A stretch of 64,000 nucleotides of DNA from positions 124,001 through 188,000 of the forward strand of contig NZ_FRXO01000004.1 of NCBI RefSeq assembly GCF_900148505.1. Reading direction: 5' to 3'. The position numbers were made by a program, and so were the translations under genes. The notes beneath the pieces are model-generated. The model did not search any database, was not told the DNA's origin, and worked only from the letters and a program-made list of their open reading frames with translations. The DNA is from Pseudoxanthobacter soli DSM 19599 (lineage in GTDB: Bacteria; Pseudomonadota; Alphaproteobacteria; Rhizobiales; Segnochrobactraceae). Below are positions 5,943 through 55,105 of the stretch, piece after piece; the first letter of the stretch is position 1, and each line of letters starts with the position of its first letter.

Positions 5943-6054
5943 GGGCATATTCCGTCCGGACCGGAGCGGCCGGAACGACGGCAATATGCGCAAGCTCTTG
6001 AATCCGGAGCGGCTTCTTCCCGGCCGGAGCTTTCCAGCCGATCGAAGGGCGCCC
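5943..6054. repeat. Dispersed double-hairpin repeat, copy 1 (hutD-hutG spacer)
   Basis: 112 bp that align along their full length with the copy at 19209-19320. Shared blocks are GGCATATTCCGT, AATATGCGC, CTTGAATC, GGAGCG and GATCGAA near the right end. The right end coincides with the third base of the hutD stop codon, and the left end lies 14 bases before the hutG start. It therefore occupies virtually the whole intergenic space inside an operon and would form two RNA hairpins in the hutUDG message. Confidence 0.8.
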
Positions 6055-6665
6055 TAGACGGTGTTGACGTGAACGGCGACCAGCACTCCGCTGCCTGCGA
6101 ACGTGACGGGACAGGCCGCATCGCGATCGAGTTCGAGAAGGTCGCCCGCGGCGAGCGGGCGATCCGGCAGCAGCGATGCCGCGAACGCGCCCTGCACGAC
6201 GAAATAGCATCGCAGGGCTGCCGGCGACACGTCCTCGAAGTTGCCGTCGCGGCGCGACACCACGGCCCGGGCGACGGCGCGGTCCACCATCACGTTGAAG
6301 TCCCGCGAGGGGCCGTCGACCTTCGTGGCCGCTACATCGTCGTCGCCCGAGAAGGCGAGGGGCTCGCCGAACGCCACGGGCACGACGCGGCCGTTGACCG
6401 AGAGCGTGAAGCCCTGGCCGTCGATCAGGGTGAGATGCCGGTCGATGCCCGGCAGGGGCGAGAAGGCGCCGGGCTCCACCACGTCCGCCACCGACAGGCG
6501 GCAGAACAGCCGGCCGTCCGGCGTCTCGCGCCGCAAGAGTTCGCGCGTGACGCCACGGCCGTTGGCCCACGGCATCACCTTCGCGTCGGCGAGCGACGAC
6601 AGCCGGGCCCCCGCCGGCAGGGTGGCCGCGCCGGCCGGGGCGTGGTCGCCGGTCGCCGCGATCAT
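6054..6665 (-). CDS. hutD: HutD family protein
   Basis: Cupin-fold protein of the HutD family, found in many hut operons. Its role is not enzymatically settled; work in Pseudomonas suggests it limits or tunes hut activity. 203 residues, with the characteristic [14 protein letters not shown] near the N terminus and [10 protein letters not shown]. The ATG at 6665 overlaps the hutU stop (ATGA), fixing the start. A repeat element begins at its stop codon. The function call is by family only. Confidence 0.88.
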
Positions 6666-8335
6666 GCGCCGAGCATGGGCAGGTTGAGGCCCTTCTCGCG
6701 CGCGCAATCGATGGCGATCTCGTAACCGGCATCGGCATGGCGCATCACGCCGGTCGCGGGATCGTTGGTCAGGACGCGCTCCAGCCGCCGCTCGGCGGCG
6801 TCCGTGCCGTCGGCGACGATCACCATGCCGGCATGCTGCGAGAAGCCCATGCCGACGCCGCCGCCATGATGCAGCGAAACCCACGTCGCGCCGGACGCGC
6901 AGTTGAGGAGGGCGTTCAGGAGCGGCCAGTCGGAGACGGCGTCCGAGCCGTCGCGCATCGCCTCGGTCTCGCGGTTGGGCGAGGCGACGGAGCCGGAATC
7001 GAGGTGGTCACGGCCGATCACGATCGGAGCCTTGAGTTCGCCGCTGCGCACCATCTCGTTGAAGGCGAGGCCGAGCTTGGCACGGTCGCCGAGACCCACC
7101 CAGCAGATCCGGGCGGGCAGGCCCTGGAAGCTGATGCGCTCCCGCGCCATGTCGAGCCAGCGGTGCAGGTGGGTGTTGTCGGGAAGAAGCTCCTTCACCT
7201 TGGCGTCGGTGCGGTAGATGTCCTCCGGGTCGCCGGAGAGTGCGGCCCACCGGAACGGGCCGATGCCGCGGCAGAACAGCGGTCGGATATAGGCCGGCAC
7301 GAAGCCCGGGAAGTCGAAGGCGTTCTCGACGCCCATCTCCTTCGCCATCTGGCGGATATTGTTGCCGTAATCGACGGTCGGCACGCCCATCGCATGGAAA
7401 TCCAGCATGGCGCGGACATGAACCGCCATGGATTCCTTCGCCGCGCGGGTGGTGCCGGCCGGGTCGAGGCGGGCGCGCTCGCGGTATTCATCCCATGTCC
7501 AGCCGATCGGCAGGTAGCCGTTCAGGGGATCGTGGGCGGAGGTCTGGTCGGTGACGATGTCCGGACGCACGCCGCGGCGGACGAGCTCGGGCACGATCTC
7601 GGCGGCATTGCCGAGGAGCGCGACCGACAGTGCCTTCTTCTCGGCGCAGGCGCGCCCGATCATCGCCAGTGCCTCGTCGAGGTCGGCGGCCTGCACGTCG
7701 ACATAGCGGGTGCGGAGGCGGAAATCGATGCCGGCCTGGCGGCATTCGATGTTGAGGGAGGCGGCACCGGCGAAGCTCGCGGCGAGCGGCTGGGCGCCGC
7801 CCATGCCGCCGAGGCCGGCGGTGAGGATCCAGCGGCCGGCGAGATCGCCGCCATAGTGCCGTCTGCCGGCTTCGGCGAAGGTTTCGTAGGTGCCCTGCAC
7901 GATGCCCTGGCTGCCGATATAGATCCATGAGCCCGCGGTCATCTGGCCGTACATCATCAGCCCCTCGCGATCGAGGGCGTTGAAGTGCTCCCAGTCGGCC
8001 CAGTGCGGCACGATGTTCGAGTTCGCGATCAGCACGCGGGGCGCGTCGGCATGGGTACGGAAGACGCCGACCGGCTTGCCGGACTGCACCAGCAGGGTCT
8101 CGTCATCGGAAAGCGTCTTCAGCGTGGCGACGATCCTGTCGAAGCACGCCCAGTCGCGGGCGGCCCGCCCGATGCCGCCATAGACGACGAGTTCCTTCGG
8201 GTTCTCGGCGACGTCGGGATCGAGATTGTTCATCAGCATGCGCATCGGCGCTTCGGTGAGCCAGCTTTTCGCGGAGAGCTCGCTGCCGCGCGGCGCACGG
8301 ATTTCGATGTCGCGGTAACGGGTGTTGCTGGTCAT
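6662..8335 (-). CDS. hutU: Urocanate hydratase HutU
   Basis: Converts urocanate to 4-imidazolone-5-propionate, the second step of histidine degradation, using tightly bound NAD. 557 residues, the usual length. Blocks [21 protein letters not shown]-like [25 protein letters not shown] and [17 protein letters not shown] are diagnostic. The ATG at 8335 follows AGGGA by about 7 bases; a longer frame to 8401 would run over the HutC operator. It is the first gene of the leftward hutU-hutD-hutG unit. Confidence 0.97.
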
Positions 8336-18471: not shown

Positions 18472-19755
18472 ATGACGGCTCAGTTCGATGTCGCGGTGAT
18501 CGGCCTCGGCGCGATGGGGGCGGCGGCCGCCGCCCATATCGCCGCGCGCGGCCAGAGTGTGGTCGGCATCGAGGCGTTCTACCCGGCGCACGAACTCGGC
18601 TCGTCTCACGGCGATAGCCGCATCATCCGGCTCGGCTATTTCGAGGATCCGGCCTATGTGCCGCTGTTGCGCCGCGCCTATGCCAACTGGCGCGCGCTGG
18701 AGGCGCGGGTGCGGGAGGACCTGCTGACGGTCACCGGCGTGCTGCAGCTCGGCCGGCCGGACAGCCCGATCGTCAGCGGCTCGCGGCAGGCCTGCGAACT
18801 GCACGGCCTTCCGTTCACCGTCTTCGAGCCGGACGAGGTGCGCGCCCGCTTTCCGGCGTTCGCCCTCGACGACGACGAGGTGGCGCTGCTGGAGCCGGAA
18901 GGCGGCTACCTGCGCCCGGAAGCTGCCGTGATGGCGCACCTGAAGTGCGCGGCGCGGGACGGCGCCGTGCTGCGGTTCGGCGAGCGTGTCACCGCGATCG
19001 AGCCGGGTGATGCCGGCGTTACCATCGTGTCCGATCTCGGCCGCGTCAGGGCCCGCAAGGTCGTCGTCGCCACAGGTCCGTGGATCGCGGAACTGGTGCC
19101 GTCGCTGAAGGGCGTGGCGAAGCCGATCAAGCAGGTGGTCGCCTGGTTCCAGCCGCGGGACAGCTTCGCGACCGCGCTCGGCCGGATGCCGGTGTTCCTC
19201 CGCGACGAGAGCATATTCCGTTCAGATCGAAGCGATCTGGACGATAAGAATATGCTCCCGCATTCGAATCTGGAGCGATTTCTTGTCGATCAGATGGTTC
19301 CATCTGATCGGAAAGCGCTCGAGGGCGAGGCCGGCTCGTTCTTCGGCTTCCCGGTCATCGGCCGCGACGCCGTGAAGGTCGGCAAGCACTGCCACTTCTT
19401 CGAAGAGATCGATCCGGACCGGCCGAACCCGGCGGTCGACGACCGCGACACGGCGGTGCTGGAGGACTTCGTCGCCCGTCGCGTGCCGGGCGCGGCCGGC
19501 GTGCGCGTCGCCACCTCGACCTGCCGCTACACGCTTCTGCCCGGGGAGAACTTCCTGCTCGACCATGTGCCCGGCGAGCCCAACATCGTCGCGGCCTCGC
19601 CGTGCTCGGGCCACGGCTACAAGTTCGCCAGCGTGATCGGCGAGATCCTTGCGGACCTCGCCCTCGATGGCGGCACGGCGCTGCCCGTGGCGTTGTTCTC
19701 GTTCGAGGCCCTGCAGCGCACGATCGGGCAGACGCCCGCCATCAATCCGACATGA
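18472..19755 (+). CDS. Sarcosine / N-methyltryptophan oxidase-like flavoprotein with an in-frame repeat insertion
   Basis: FAD-dependent amine oxidase of the MSOX/SolA family, expected to oxidise an N-methyl amino acid. The dinucleotide motif VIGLGAMG is at the N terminus, then GSSHGDSRIIR and the flavin-linking cysteine in TCRYTLLP (Cys351). The 427-residue product is about 38 longer than usual. Residues 247-283, between FLRDE and EGEAGSFFGFP, are encoded by a dispersed repeat (19209-19320). Removing them gives 389 residues and moves the cysteine to about 313, close to the family position. The frame is kept, so the protein may still fold. The start at 18472 gives the usual short N terminus. 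Confidence 0.85.
   Translation: MTAQFDVAVIGLGAMGAAAAAHIAARGQSVVGIEAFYPAHELGSSHGDSRIIRLGYFEDPAYVPLLRRAYANWRALEARVREDLLTVTGVLQLGRPDSPIVSGSRQACELHGLPFTVFEPDEVRARFPAFALDDDEVALLEPEGGYLRPEAAVMAHLKCAARDGAVLRFGERVTAIEPGDAGVTIVSDLGRVRARKVVVATGPWIAELVPSLKGVAKPIKQVVAWFQPRDSFATALGRMPVFLRDESIFRSDRSDLDDKNMLPHSNLERFLVDQMVPSDRKALEGEAGSFFGFPVIGRDAVKVGKHCHFFEEIDPDRPNPAVDDRDTAVLEDFVARRVPGAAGVRVATSTCRYTLLPGENFLLDHVPGEPNIVAASPCSGHGYKFASVIGEILADLALDGGTALPVALFSFEALQRTIGQTPAINPT
19209..19320. repeat. Dispersed double-hairpin repeat, copy 2, inside the oxidase gene
   Basis: 112 bp. Hairpin one has ends GAGCATATTC (19209-19218) and GAATATGCTC (19248-19257), with inner arms CGTTCAGATCG and CGATCTGGACG. Hairpin two runs from GAGCG (19273) to GCGCTC and contains the perfect arms CGATCAGATGG and CCATCTGATCG around TT. 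GAG codons flank the insert (19207-19209 and 19321-19323), so 114 bases or 38 codons could have been added without a frameshift. Confidence 0.85.
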
Positions 19756-30166: not shown

Positions 30167-30272
30167 TAGCGCCTTCCAATCTGATCGCAGCATCGGATCG
30201 ACAGGAAATCGCTTCAGGTTCAGAGGGCTGAGCTTATGCTTTCCGCTCTGATCGGCCGAGCGGGATATGCTC
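30167..30272. repeat. Dispersed double-hairpin repeat, copy 3 (reverse orientation)
   Basis: About 106 bp. Its reverse complement aligns with the copy at 19209-19320: GAGCATATCCCG, AAGCGATTTCCTGTCGAT, GATCAGATTGGAAGGCGC and matching hairpin order. It lies between two convergent genes, in inverted orientation relative to the oxidase copy, and is slightly shorter in the first hairpin. Confidence 0.75.
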
Positions 30273-30279
30273 CAGCCGC

Positions 30280-52589: not shown

Positions 52590-53971
52590 ACCCGTCCCGT
52601 TCCGCGTCGGCCGTGCCGGAGGTCGTCGTATTCGTCGACGACGACGACGACCTGCGTGCAGCGAATGCGGAGAGCCTCGCGCTGGCAGGGTTCGAGCCGG
52701 TGCCGTGCGCATCCGGGGAGGAAGCGTTGCGGCATATCGGCCCGGATTTCGCCGGCGTCGTCGTGACCGACATCCGCATGCCGAAGATGGACGGCCCGGC
52801 CCTGTTCCGTCGCATCAAGGCGATCGATCCGGATATTCCGGTGCTGTTCATCACCGGCCACGGCGACGTCGAGACCGCGGTCGCGGCAATGCGCGACGGT
52901 GCATACGACTTCGTCACCAAGCCGTTCGCGGCGGAGCGTCTGGTGTCGTCCGTCCGCCGCGCACTGGAGAAGCGCCGGCTAGTGCTGGAGAACCGCCGGC
53001 TGCGCCATGCCGTGGAGGCGGCGGCCGACGATTTCCCGCTGATCGGCGAAACGCCGGCGATGGAGCGTCTTCGGCGAACCCTGCGCCACGTCGCGGCGGC
53101 CGATGTCGACGTGCTGGTGACGGGCGAGACCGGATCGGGCAAGGAGGTGGTGGCCACGGCGCTGCATCGCTGGAGCCGGCGCGCGCGCAAGCCATTCGTC
53201 GCGCTCAATTGCGGCGCCCTGCCGGAGACGGTGATCGAGAGCGAACTTTTCGGCCACGAGCCGGGCGCCTTCACCGGAGCCCAGCGCCGCCGCATCGGCC
53301 GCATCGAGCACGCGAGCGGGGGAACCCTGCTGCTCGACGAGATCGAGAGCATGCCGCTCGCCTTGCAGGTGAAGCTGCTGCGCGTGCTCGAGGCGCGCGA
53401 GGTGACGCCGCTCGGAAGCAACGAGGTGAGGCCCGTGGATATTCGGGTCATCGCGGCGACGAAGGCCGACCTGGCGGAGCCGAAGGCGCGCGAGACCTTT
53501 CGCGAGGATCTGTTCTATCGCCTCAATGTCGTCAGCCTGCGCATTCCCCCGCTGAGGGAGCGGCGCGCGGACGTGCCGCTGCTGTTCGCCTATTTCCTCG
53601 GACGGGCGGCGACCCGGTTCGGGATCGATCCACCTGAGGTCGGCGACGGCGTGCGGCACCACCTGCTCGCCCACGACTGGCCGGGCAACGTGCGCGAACT
53701 CGCCCACTTCGCCGAGCGCGTCGCCCTCGGCCTCGGGGAAACCGGCGAGGCGTCGCACGAGGTCGATTCCGATGCTCCCGCCGCCAGCCTGCCGGAGCGG
53801 GTGGACAGGTTCGAGGCAGACCTGATCCGCCGGGAACTTGAGGCGAACAGGGGCGATGTCCGTGCCACTGTCGAGGCGCTGGCGATCCCGCGAAAGACGT
53901 TCTACGACAAGCTGAAGCGGCACGGCATTCGGCAGGCGGACTATCGCCGCGACCCGGATGGCGAGGCGTAG
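52586..53971 (+). CDS. dctD: Sigma-54 activator and response regulator DctD
   Basis: 461 residues. The receiver domain has its phospho-acceptor at Asp62 ([12 protein letters not shown]). The AAA+ domain has Walker A GETGSGKE (180-187) and the sigma-54 contact loop GAFTGA at 227-232. A Fis-type helix-turn-helix lies at the C terminus ([22 protein letters not shown]). It overlaps dctB by 4 bases. The stop TAG ends on the first base of a dispersed repeat. Confidence 0.95.
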
Positions 53972-54090
53972 AGCATGTCCCGTCCGGATCGACGCGATCC
54001 GAACGGCAAGGATATGCTCAAGCTGCCAAAGCCCGGGTGCTGCGGATTCGGCCGGATGGTTCCGATCCGGCCGGCTACTCCGGGGCGCTG
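53971..54090. repeat. Dispersed double-hairpin repeat, copy 4 (diverged)
   Basis: The first hairpin, 53971-54019, matches the oxidase copy closely: GAGCATGTCCCGTCCGGATC at the left and AAGGATATGCTC at the right. The second hairpin is diverged but keeps GGATGGTTCC at its centre (about 54053) and GGGGCGCT at its end. It starts on the final base of the dctD stop and lies between dctD and ribokinase. Confidence 0.65.
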
Positions 54091-54157
54091 CGGCGGGACG
54101 TGTCGCGCCTTTGGGCGCCACGGCCTCAGAACAACGAGAAATCGCGGGAGGGAATCC

Positions 54158-55105
54158 ATGGCTCAGCGCATCGCCGTCGTCGGCAGCAACAATGTCGATC
54201 TCATCACCTACGTGAATCGCATTCCCGGACCCGGCGAGACTCTGGAAGCGCCGAAGTTCCAGATCGGCAACGGCGGCAAGGGCGCCAATCAGGCGGTTGC
54301 CGCCGCGCGCCTTGGTGCCGACGTCCTGATGGTCTCCAAGGTGGGGGACGACCTGTTCGCGGACAGCACGGTCGCCAACCTTGCCGCCGCCGGCATCGAT
54401 GTGCGCCATGTCGGCCGGGCGGCGGGCGTGTCGAGCGGAGTCGCGCCGATCTTCGTCGAGCCGTCGGGCGAGAACCGCATTTTGATCGTCAAGGGCGCGA
54501 ACGACGTGCTGTCGCCGGCCGATATCGATGCGGCGGCGGAGGATCTCTCCCGGTGCCGCCTGATCCTGCTTCAGCTCGAGATCGCGATCGAGACGGTCTA
54601 TTACACGCTCGATTTCGCGGCCCGCCATGGCATCGAGGTTCTTCTCAATCCAGCACCCGCCTTGCCGGATCTCGACCCCGCCAAGGTCTCTCTCGCGACC
54701 TTCCTGGTTCCTAACGAGAGCGAACTCGCGATCCTGACCGGTCTGCCGACCGGCACGGAGGACGAGGTGGAGGTGGCGGCTCGCGCGCTGATCGCCAAGG
54801 GCAACCGCACCGTGATCGTGACGATGGGCGCGCGCGGCGCGCTGCTGGTGACGGCGGACGGCAAGGTTCATGTGTCCTCGGTGCCTGTGACTCCGAAGGA
54901 CACGACCGGGGCGGGAGACGCCTTCATCGGCGCGTTCGCACGTTACTATGTTGACGGGTTCGATCCGGTGGCAGCCGTAGAGCGCGCGGTCCGTTACGCC
55001 GCCGACTCGATCACGCGGCTTGGCACGCAATCCTCCTACGCGACAGAGGCCGCTTTCGAGGACCTGCTGACACGGGAGGGAGCGCTTGCGGACGCAGAAG
55101 GCTGA
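54158..55105 (+). CDS. rbsK: Ribokinase family sugar kinase
   Basis: 315 residues, PfkB fold. The N-terminal substrate motif GNGGKGANQAVAAARLG and the C-terminal catalytic motif DTTGAGDAF, with the general base Asp, match ribokinases. GGGAGGGA precedes the ATG. It stands alone between dctD and a tetR gene, and could phosphorylate the sugar imported by the ribose-type system at 42-46 kb. Substrate is by family. Confidence 0.9.
   Translation: MAQRIAVVGSNNVDLITYVNRIPGPGETLEAPKFQIGNGGKGANQAVAAARLGADVLMVSKVGDDLFADSTVANLAAAGIDVRHVGRAAGVSSGVAPIFVEPSGENRILIVKGANDVLSPADIDAAAEDLSRCRLILLQLEIAIETVYYTLDFAARHGIEVLLNPAPALPDLDPAKVSLATFLVPNESELAILTGLPTGTEDEVEVAARALIAKGNRTVIVTMGARGALLVTADGKVHVSSVPVTPKDTTGAGDAFIGAFARYYVDGFDPVAAVERAVRYAADSITRLGTQSSYATEAAFEDLLTREGALADAEG

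Follow-up and report, generated by a model that had tools for sequence, protein, structure and literature searches.

A dispersed 112-bp double-hairpin repeat lies in frame inside a flavoprotein oxidase gene of Pseudoxanthobacter soli

The RPE repeats of Rickettsia are described, in the available excerpts of two sources (PMC2229807, PMC10969869), as palindromic units of about 100–150 bp with an open frame that lie in frame in unrelated genes. The same excerpts give them long stem-loops with 12-bp terminal inverted repeats and many copies in genes, with 19 reading frames in the first report (PMC2229807, PMC10969869). Among the alphaproteobacteria, the CcrM-associated intergenic repeats (CIR; Chen and Shapiro 2003, as reviewed in PMC2229807) are about 110 bp long and consist of two arms and a linker, with GANTC sites, TA ends and many intergenic copies; according to the excerpted review, they are not found inside genes and carry stops in all six frames (PMC2229807). 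RUP of Streptococcus pneumoniae, as summarized in the same excerpt, is a 107-bp unit present in 108 copies, with a TA target; its movement is attributed to an IS630-type transposase supplied in trans (PMC2229807). Small units that are translated within genes or fused to them are further reported there for the 107-bp Correia elements of Neisseria and for enterobacterial and Yersinia repeats (PMC2229807), and Cod-2 of Corynebacterium diphtheriae is described in the excerpt of another paper as a small coding repeat (PMC2267715).

We analyzed a stretch of 64,000 nucleotides from Pseudoxanthobacter soli DSM 19599 (the window; positions 124,001 to 188,000 of contig NZ_FRXO01000004.1), for which an initial annotation had described a 112-bp double-hairpin repeat at 19209–19320 within an oxidase gene. 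The observation is confirmed: the repeat was found there, in frame, and the frame through it is open. The features of this locus are as follows.

18472..19755, plus strand: putative FAD-dependent oxidase gene, N-methyl-L-tryptophan oxidase / monomeric sarcosine oxidase family (427 aa; NF008425, PF01266 and conserved residues)
19207..19208, plus strand: left GA of the presumed 2-bp target duplication (C-GA, then the repeat; from the sequence and the empty site of the best homologs)
19209..19320, plus strand: 112-bp double-hairpin repeat, codons 247–283, its first base finishing codon 246 (88.8% identity to the family consensus)
19209..19257, plus strand: hairpin 1 (from folds of this copy and of the consensus)
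19258..19272, plus strand: linker of 15 bases, with GAATC (a GANTC site) at 19266–19270 (from the sequence)
19273..19320, plus strand: hairpin 2, with the loop GGTTC where the consensus has GATTC (from the fold and comparison with the consensus)
19321..19322, plus strand: right GA of the presumed 2-bp target duplication (the repeat, then GA-G; from the sequence)

The oxidase reading frame runs without interruption from the ATG at 18472 to the stop at 19755. Its product matches the NCBIfam profile NF008425 (N-methyl-L-tryptophan oxidase) with 398 bits against a cut-off of 257, in two separate stretches of which the better one stops at residue 244, and it contains a PF01266 DAO domain; the TIGR01377 score (241.5 bits) is under the cut-off of that profile (479.65). 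Residues R50, R53, K302, C351 and K384 are all present and are invariant across an alignment of 40 sequences. We take these five to be the equivalents of the catalytic and flavin-binding residues of sarcosine oxidase, C351 being the putative flavin-binding cysteine by analogy with that enzyme. Judged by the profile score above cut-off and the conserved residues, the gene is a member of the N-methyltryptophan / monomeric sarcosine oxidase family. Fourteen distinct PDB sequences were matched, and 11 of them, sarcosine and N-methyltryptophan oxidases, aligned in two stretches. In the three alignments inspected, the hole lies between residues 231–245 and 283–287; the repeat fills that place.

The insertion site reads C-GA-[112 bp]-GA-G, with GAG at both codon 246 and codon 284, so that the repeat and one 2-bp GA make a net gain of 114 bp, or 38 codons, as the initial annotation had deduced from these flanking codons. 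Its expectation that subtracting the repeat would restore a length of about 389 residues also holds, since 427 minus 38 equals the 389 residues of the solved chain 1el5. The insert had been counted as about 37–38 extra residues (247–283); its in-frame nature stands, and the exact count is 38 (247–284 or, equally, 246–283). Searches with the oxidase found no match beyond its own gene in 61 genomes (60 relatives and P. soli itself) at E 1e-60, and none in two other genomes of the family at E 1e-30; homologs for alignment were taken from a wider search of genome contigs. The 40-sequence alignment comprises 40 of the 53 rows first gathered, rows with a stop codon in the translation having been left out, some of them as a precaution. 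In this alignment, the homolog comparison that the initial annotation had proposed as a check bears out its reading: the insert is absent from 39 of 39 homologs, each of which has one residue across the 38 columns. The five homologs with the best scores (three from Rhizobium and two from Brucella endophytica, 59–64% identical) show a BLASTP gap of exactly 38, and their empty site reads R-D-E-G-E. Over all 23 homologs aligned pairwise (from 28 loci, the remaining five being included in the 40-sequence alignment), the gap ranges from 38 to 51. Both flanks of the insert align with homologs, and nothing has been lost.

The AlphaFold model of the oxidase has a mean pLDDT of 86, which falls below 50 at residues 249–283, between strands 241–245 and 289–294. 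Against known sarcosine oxidases, the TM score is 0.95 when normalized to 7exs and 0.83 when normalized to the model. The low confidence at the insert, combined with the good match of the core, suggests a disordered loop on an intact fold. Thus the insert looks like a disordered loop in the turn of a β-hairpin within an otherwise normal predicted fold, in line with the structural outcome that the initial annotation had proposed to check.

As single-stranded DNA, the segment 19205–19325 is far more stable than its shuffled versions (z = −7.7; none of 200 shuffles is as stable). The copy shares 88.8% identity with the family consensus over 116 columns, and it differs from the consensus of 107 copies at 12 of 112 bases, which ranks it 90th of 107, i.e., more diverged than most. 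Its nearest relatives are copies from the same genome (11 differences), the nearest copy in the other genomes examined being 22 differences away. Compared with the consensus, 9 of the 11 changed codons are non-synonymous, with His, Ser and Gln among the replacements of Leu. Both stems stay paired through two pairs of changes, 19217/19249 and 19292/19305; the GANTC site of the linker is retained, and that of loop 2 is lost. These changes fit neutral drift together with palindrome correction, and they do not demonstrate selection on the peptide. A search of the repeat against Rfam gave nothing at gathering scores, the only two matches being chance-level hits to mir-4520 (E 0.19 and 0.84).

The repeat belongs to a large dispersed family. 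A BLAST search of the genome gave 49 match rows, among them the query and short antisense pieces, and a covariance model based on 32 copies retrieved at least 150 matches. A profile applied to the loci from those places and to the window yielded 171 copies distinct by genome coordinate, which is a lower bound on the copy number; 148 of them are near full length. Within the window, an ungapped direct-repeat search at 40 bp missed diverged copies, which the consensus profile and BLAST recovered. The following three copies bear out the earlier statement that the repeat occurs elsewhere in the window.

5944..6056, plus strand: diverged copy outside called genes; CTAG at its border closes a coding frame of the minus strand
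30167..30274, minus strand: diverged copy between two called genes (profile and BLAST with the consensus)
about 53969..54074, plus strand: strongly diverged copy overlapping the start, as called, of the ORF at 53975–55105 (profile and BLAST with the consensus)

Among the 148 near-full-length copies, 107 are exactly 112 bp long, and the consensus folds into two independent arms joined by a linker. The dinucleotide TA flanks 78 copies on the left, 84 on the right and 51 on both sides, leaving 97 of 148 without TA on both sides; C is found at position −3 in 111 copies and G at position +2 in 98, giving C-TA-[112 bp]-TA-G as the typical site. The tetranucleotide CTAG is itself scarce in the window, with 10 occurrences against about 53 expected from trinucleotides. 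Of the 148 copies, 62 carry GANTC exactly at both the linker and the loop-2 position and 31 only at that of the linker, and 14 have no GANTC. Among the five bases of the loop site, the middle one varies most (T 77, G 27 and C 3 of 107); two other bases of the site vary too, which makes this pattern weak evidence for a kept methylation site. The GA/GA flanks of the oxidase copy are the sole such pair among the 148 copies. Identical non-TA flank pairs occur in 8 of 37 cases versus 4.8 by shuffling (p = 0.064), a slight excess that gives weak support to duplication of non-TA targets across the family, and the GA/GA of the oxidase therefore rests on its own sequence and its homologs. Several copies stand head to tail (L004/L023, L005, L007/L010 and L030), mostly 114 bp apart with a shared TA or TG between them, and look as if one had inserted at the border of another.

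The genome-wide search that the initial annotation had recommended shows that three of the 171 distinct copies examined in P. soli lie inside genes, namely in the oxidase, TreZ and an MFS transporter, all of them open in frame. The second gene (L148) encodes a malto-oligosyltrehalose trehalohydrolase (TreZ; TIGR02402, 578 bits), in which the copy separates the catalytic part from the C-terminal domain. In the 38 columns of the insert, the 19 aligned TreZ homologs have 3–8 residues, and about three additional residues remain unaccounted for by the copy. The TreZ model has pLDDT below 50 at exactly residues 504–541, other low stretches being 1–5, 44–64, 629–632 and 667–669, and the low-confidence stretch thus coincides with the insert in both models (249–283 in the oxidase). 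The third gene (L244) encodes an MFS transporter matched by PF07690 in two stretches, with the copy in the loop between the two halves. A Sinorhizobium homolog (30% identical) has a shorter loop at this site; a search for orthologs at E 1e-40 in 249 genomes retrieved its own gene alone.

Two more in-gene copies were found among 60 copies from three other genomes, both of them among the 49 copies of one genome (G043); none was found among the nine copies of G012 and the two of G002. One of them (L304) lies between the HATPase and receiver domains of a hybrid histidine kinase. The other (L307:790–1476) lies in reverse orientation in a GNAT acetyltransferase, which matched 16 PDB acetyltransferases and had no Pfam match at E 1e-5. 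This protein is exactly 38 residues longer than two plasmid homologs (54–57% identical); the borders of the copy, TC and GA, are not repeated. The plasmid homologs adjoin a DUF1778 gene. Altogether, 5 of the 231 examined copies are inside genes, all in frame and in genes of unrelated families.

When the consensus is placed at CTAG, a single one of its six frames is free of stops from end to end, and two others lack internal stops and are closed by TAG at both borders. The copies in TreZ, the MFS transporter and the kinase use the fully open frame. The oxidase copy uses one of the two TAG-bordered frames, in the phase of the border stops described below; with GA instead of TA at its borders, the border codons are GAG rather than TAG, and so the frame is open. 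The GNAT copy is read in a reverse frame that has stops in the P. soli consensus and none in that copy.

Since 80% of the window is called coding, random landing would place about 137 of the 171 copies in genes, against the three observed, i.e., in-gene copies are strongly depleted. The first search for in-gene copies required open frames, and a second one, from which this condition was dropped, gave 10 interrupted or shifted pairs of frames on the same strand (8 at the 171 P. soli copies and 2 at the 60 others). We rejected these as genes split by a repeat; read by eye, all 10 look like two neighboring genes, the left one stopping at or next to the copy and the right frame having its own start nearby. 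For example, the left protein at L253 has Gly-Gly as its last residues and its right neighbor is MoaE-like, as expected of a moaD-moaE pair. Frames were also seen to read through a copy near a contig end (L392) and, at L184:1513–1628 (minus strand), through a whole copy to an end about 149 bp later, a possible long C-terminal extension; the 49 codons after the latter copy look non-coding, and it was not counted among the insertions.

The most frequent relation between copies and genes is a stop codon at the border of the repeat. Coding frames were scored by codon usage, with the window as the training set. A coding frame that ends within 150 bp or enters the copy was seen at 145 of 296 copy ends. 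In 41 of these 145 cases, the stop codon begins exactly 2 bases before the copy, any other distance accounting for at most 3, and 38 of the 41 stops are TAG, formed by the flanking TA and the first G of the repeat; among stops elsewhere upstream of copies, TAG accounts for 6 of 97. Border stops are found in both orientations (17 and 24). The loci include L112–L259 in P. soli and the minus-strand frame 6057–6884 of the window, and at L161 convergent genes end at both borders of a single copy. In the three other genomes (60 copies), to which the same window-trained model was applied, 5 of 31 scored ends have a border stop. In further loci (40 copies, three of the loci being from P. soli), 10 of 14 frames reaching a copy end in this way, frames that stop before the copy not being counted.

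Truncation of genes at these stops was considered and rejected, on a scan of 18 of the 41 border-stop proteins at E 1e-40 and on the frames that follow the copies. In the scan, 14 of the 18 had a family match and 4 had none, and 13 of the 14 reach at least 97% of the profile, the remaining one reaching 91%. Coding in phase after the copy was seen in 2 of the 41 cases, versus 3 and 1 in the other phases. The border-stop genes thus look as if they end naturally. At four loci, the copy lies between neighboring genes of an apparent operon, with the TAG of the left gene at the border; read by eye, the pairs are NtrX-like and TrkA-like proteins (L236), parts of a TRAP transporter (L235), a sugar ABC binding protein and its ATPase (L190), and MoaD-like and MoaE-like proteins (L253). 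At L127, L213 and L254, coding frames enter the reverse end of the copy for five codons and then stop, giving a short C-terminal tail (consensus ERFPI).

The distribution of the repeat across genomes is patchy. The covariance model found copies at E 1e-6 in 5 of 61 genomes (the relatives and P. soli), and a search of the order with the consensus peptide was positive in 12 of 397 genomes, P. soli included, from six families. Class-wide, the figure is 6 of 190 genomes, again with P. soli included. Weak matches at E 0.001 occur in 8 of 16 genomes with oxidase homologs, namely in three Rhizobium, two Ancylobacter, Azorhizobium, Roseicella and Brucella endophytica, the last with one match at E 3.7e-5. 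Two plasmid-borne copies from Methylocella have 74% identity; together with the nearest oxidase homologs, they point to Hyphomicrobiales as the order.

Compared by description, the repeat shares four features with CIR, namely its size (112 bp), its two hairpin arms with a linker, its GANTC sites and its TA termini (GA in the oxidase copy). In contrast to the excerpted account of CIR, one of the six consensus frames is open at CTAG, two more are open inside, and five copies lie within genes. We therefore call it CIR-like rather than CIR. The likeness to RPE drawn by the initial annotation is apt for the mode of working: a palindromic repeat lies in frame inside five unrelated genes, as judged here from the frame and the homologs. 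The likeness does not extend to the family, and by description (the RPE side being taken from excerpts) the repeat differs in its two independent hairpins, its TA/CTAG site and GANTC sites, its occurrence in what are probably genomes of about 5 Mb from another order, the small share of copies in genes (5 of 231) and its preference for CTAG and TAG stops. The repeat thus works like RPE but is another family. With RUP it shares a similar size and the TA target, but no PF13358 domain was found in the P. soli genome; RUP, as excerpted, differs further in its stops in all six frames and in terminal inverted repeats like those of IS630-Spn1 (PMC2229807). Correia, enterobacterial, Yersinia and Cod-2 repeats belong to unrelated lineages, and the available excerpts on them make no mention of rebuilt TAG stops (PMC2229807, PMC2267715). 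A literature search over the titles and abstract openings of the papers listed, with most subscription journals outside its scope, found neither in-gene copies of double-hairpin repeats from this order nor rebuilt stops, in agreement with the initial annotation, which knew of no described in-gene case.

Taken together, the insert in the oxidase is real, was correctly read by the initial annotation, whose interpretation is supported, and is part of a wider pattern. At least five affected genes in two genomes, the CTAG preference and the formation of TAG stops go beyond that annotation. It is highly probable that the segment is a dispersed non-autonomous palindromic element that inserted into the gene, and whose copies mostly survive between genes or on TAG stops and rarely in frame at tolerant sites. 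Under this explanation, an element of two hairpins and a linker with a GANTC site would have been placed into the oxidase gene by an IS630-like transposase that acts in trans and targets the TA of CTAG. Targeting of TA or CTAG is a habit of IS630-type elements. A search of the P. soli genome for the IS630-type transposase domain PF13358 at E 1e-5 gave no match; the mover may have another domain or may since have been lost. A 2-bp target duplication would bring each full-length insertion to 114 bp (112 + 2), with no frame shift; its signs are TA on both sides in 51 of 148 copies and a net 38 codons in two genes, the empty site being seen at the protein level only. Most surviving copies would lie between genes or at a CTAG holding a stop codon that the insertion rebuilds. 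Selection would remove most in-gene insertions, the survivors combining an open frame with a site that tolerates a loop. In the oxidase, the target would have been C-GA-G instead of C-TA-G, giving GAG border codons, and the segment would be read as a disordered loop. The insert is most likely neutral or close to it, and the oxidase would still be functional.

An inactive oxidase, broken by an insertion whose frame has simply not decayed yet, is unlikely, though the insert lies directly before the strand with the Gly-Phe-Pro motif and K302, and the active site could thus be disturbed. Against this, the frame is open over 427 codons with codon scores of 31.2 on the right flank and 27.9 on the left, the five presumed functional residues are kept within a confidently modeled core, and the divergence of the copy, greater than in most others, implies that the frame has stayed open for some time. 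All five in-gene copies are likewise open, although the first search sought open ones. Domestication of the insert, with the loop, the mRNA hairpins or the GANTC site tuning activity, partner binding or expression, is improbable. The 9 of 11 non-synonymous codon changes, the two stem-preserving pairs and the retained linker GAATC can be cited in its favor, but the same changes fit drift or the correction of imperfect palindromes, the loop GANTC has become GGTTC, the segment is predicted to be disordered, and its absence from every homolog means that conservation cannot be seen. We consider it very unlikely that the element is excised from the mRNA like an intron or that ribosomes bypass it, either of which would leave a protein of normal length. 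In favor of such a process, the segment folds strongly, and skipped segments rich in hairpins are known from other systems. It needs no open frame, yet the five in-gene copies are open while only one in six consensus frames at CTAG is, and the 10 interrupted or shifted pairs among 231 copies all look like neighboring genes. Finally, an assembly or sequencing artefact, conceivable in that repeats can confuse assemblies, is hardly credible, because the nearest other 112-bp copy of the genome differs at 11 positions, the flanks align fully with homologs and the same event recurs in four further genes, of which two belong to a different genome.

The preferred reading, that of an inserted dispersed element, carries a broader proposal, for and against which we see about equal weight: that the repeat is a low-harm palindrome by virtue of its 38-codon size, the TAG rebuilt by its own first base and three of six frames without an internal stop. 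As such, it would be a stop-restoring passenger at the ends of genes and, where an open frame offers it a sense codon, would repeatedly supply enzymes, kinases and transporters with disordered peptides in frame, in several families of a single alphaproteobacterial order. Palindromes that code in frame are chiefly known from Rickettsiales, in which they could be tolerated as a result of genome decay; here they occur in genomes of about 5 Mb. The pattern suggests a rule for the survival of a mobile repeat in a dense genome, which is to rebuild the stop codon it has landed on or to keep the frame. For annotation, it is a warning that genes beside such repeats may acquire tails or loops. The in-gene copies also provide natural examples, open to testing, of enzymes that have gained a new peptide segment.
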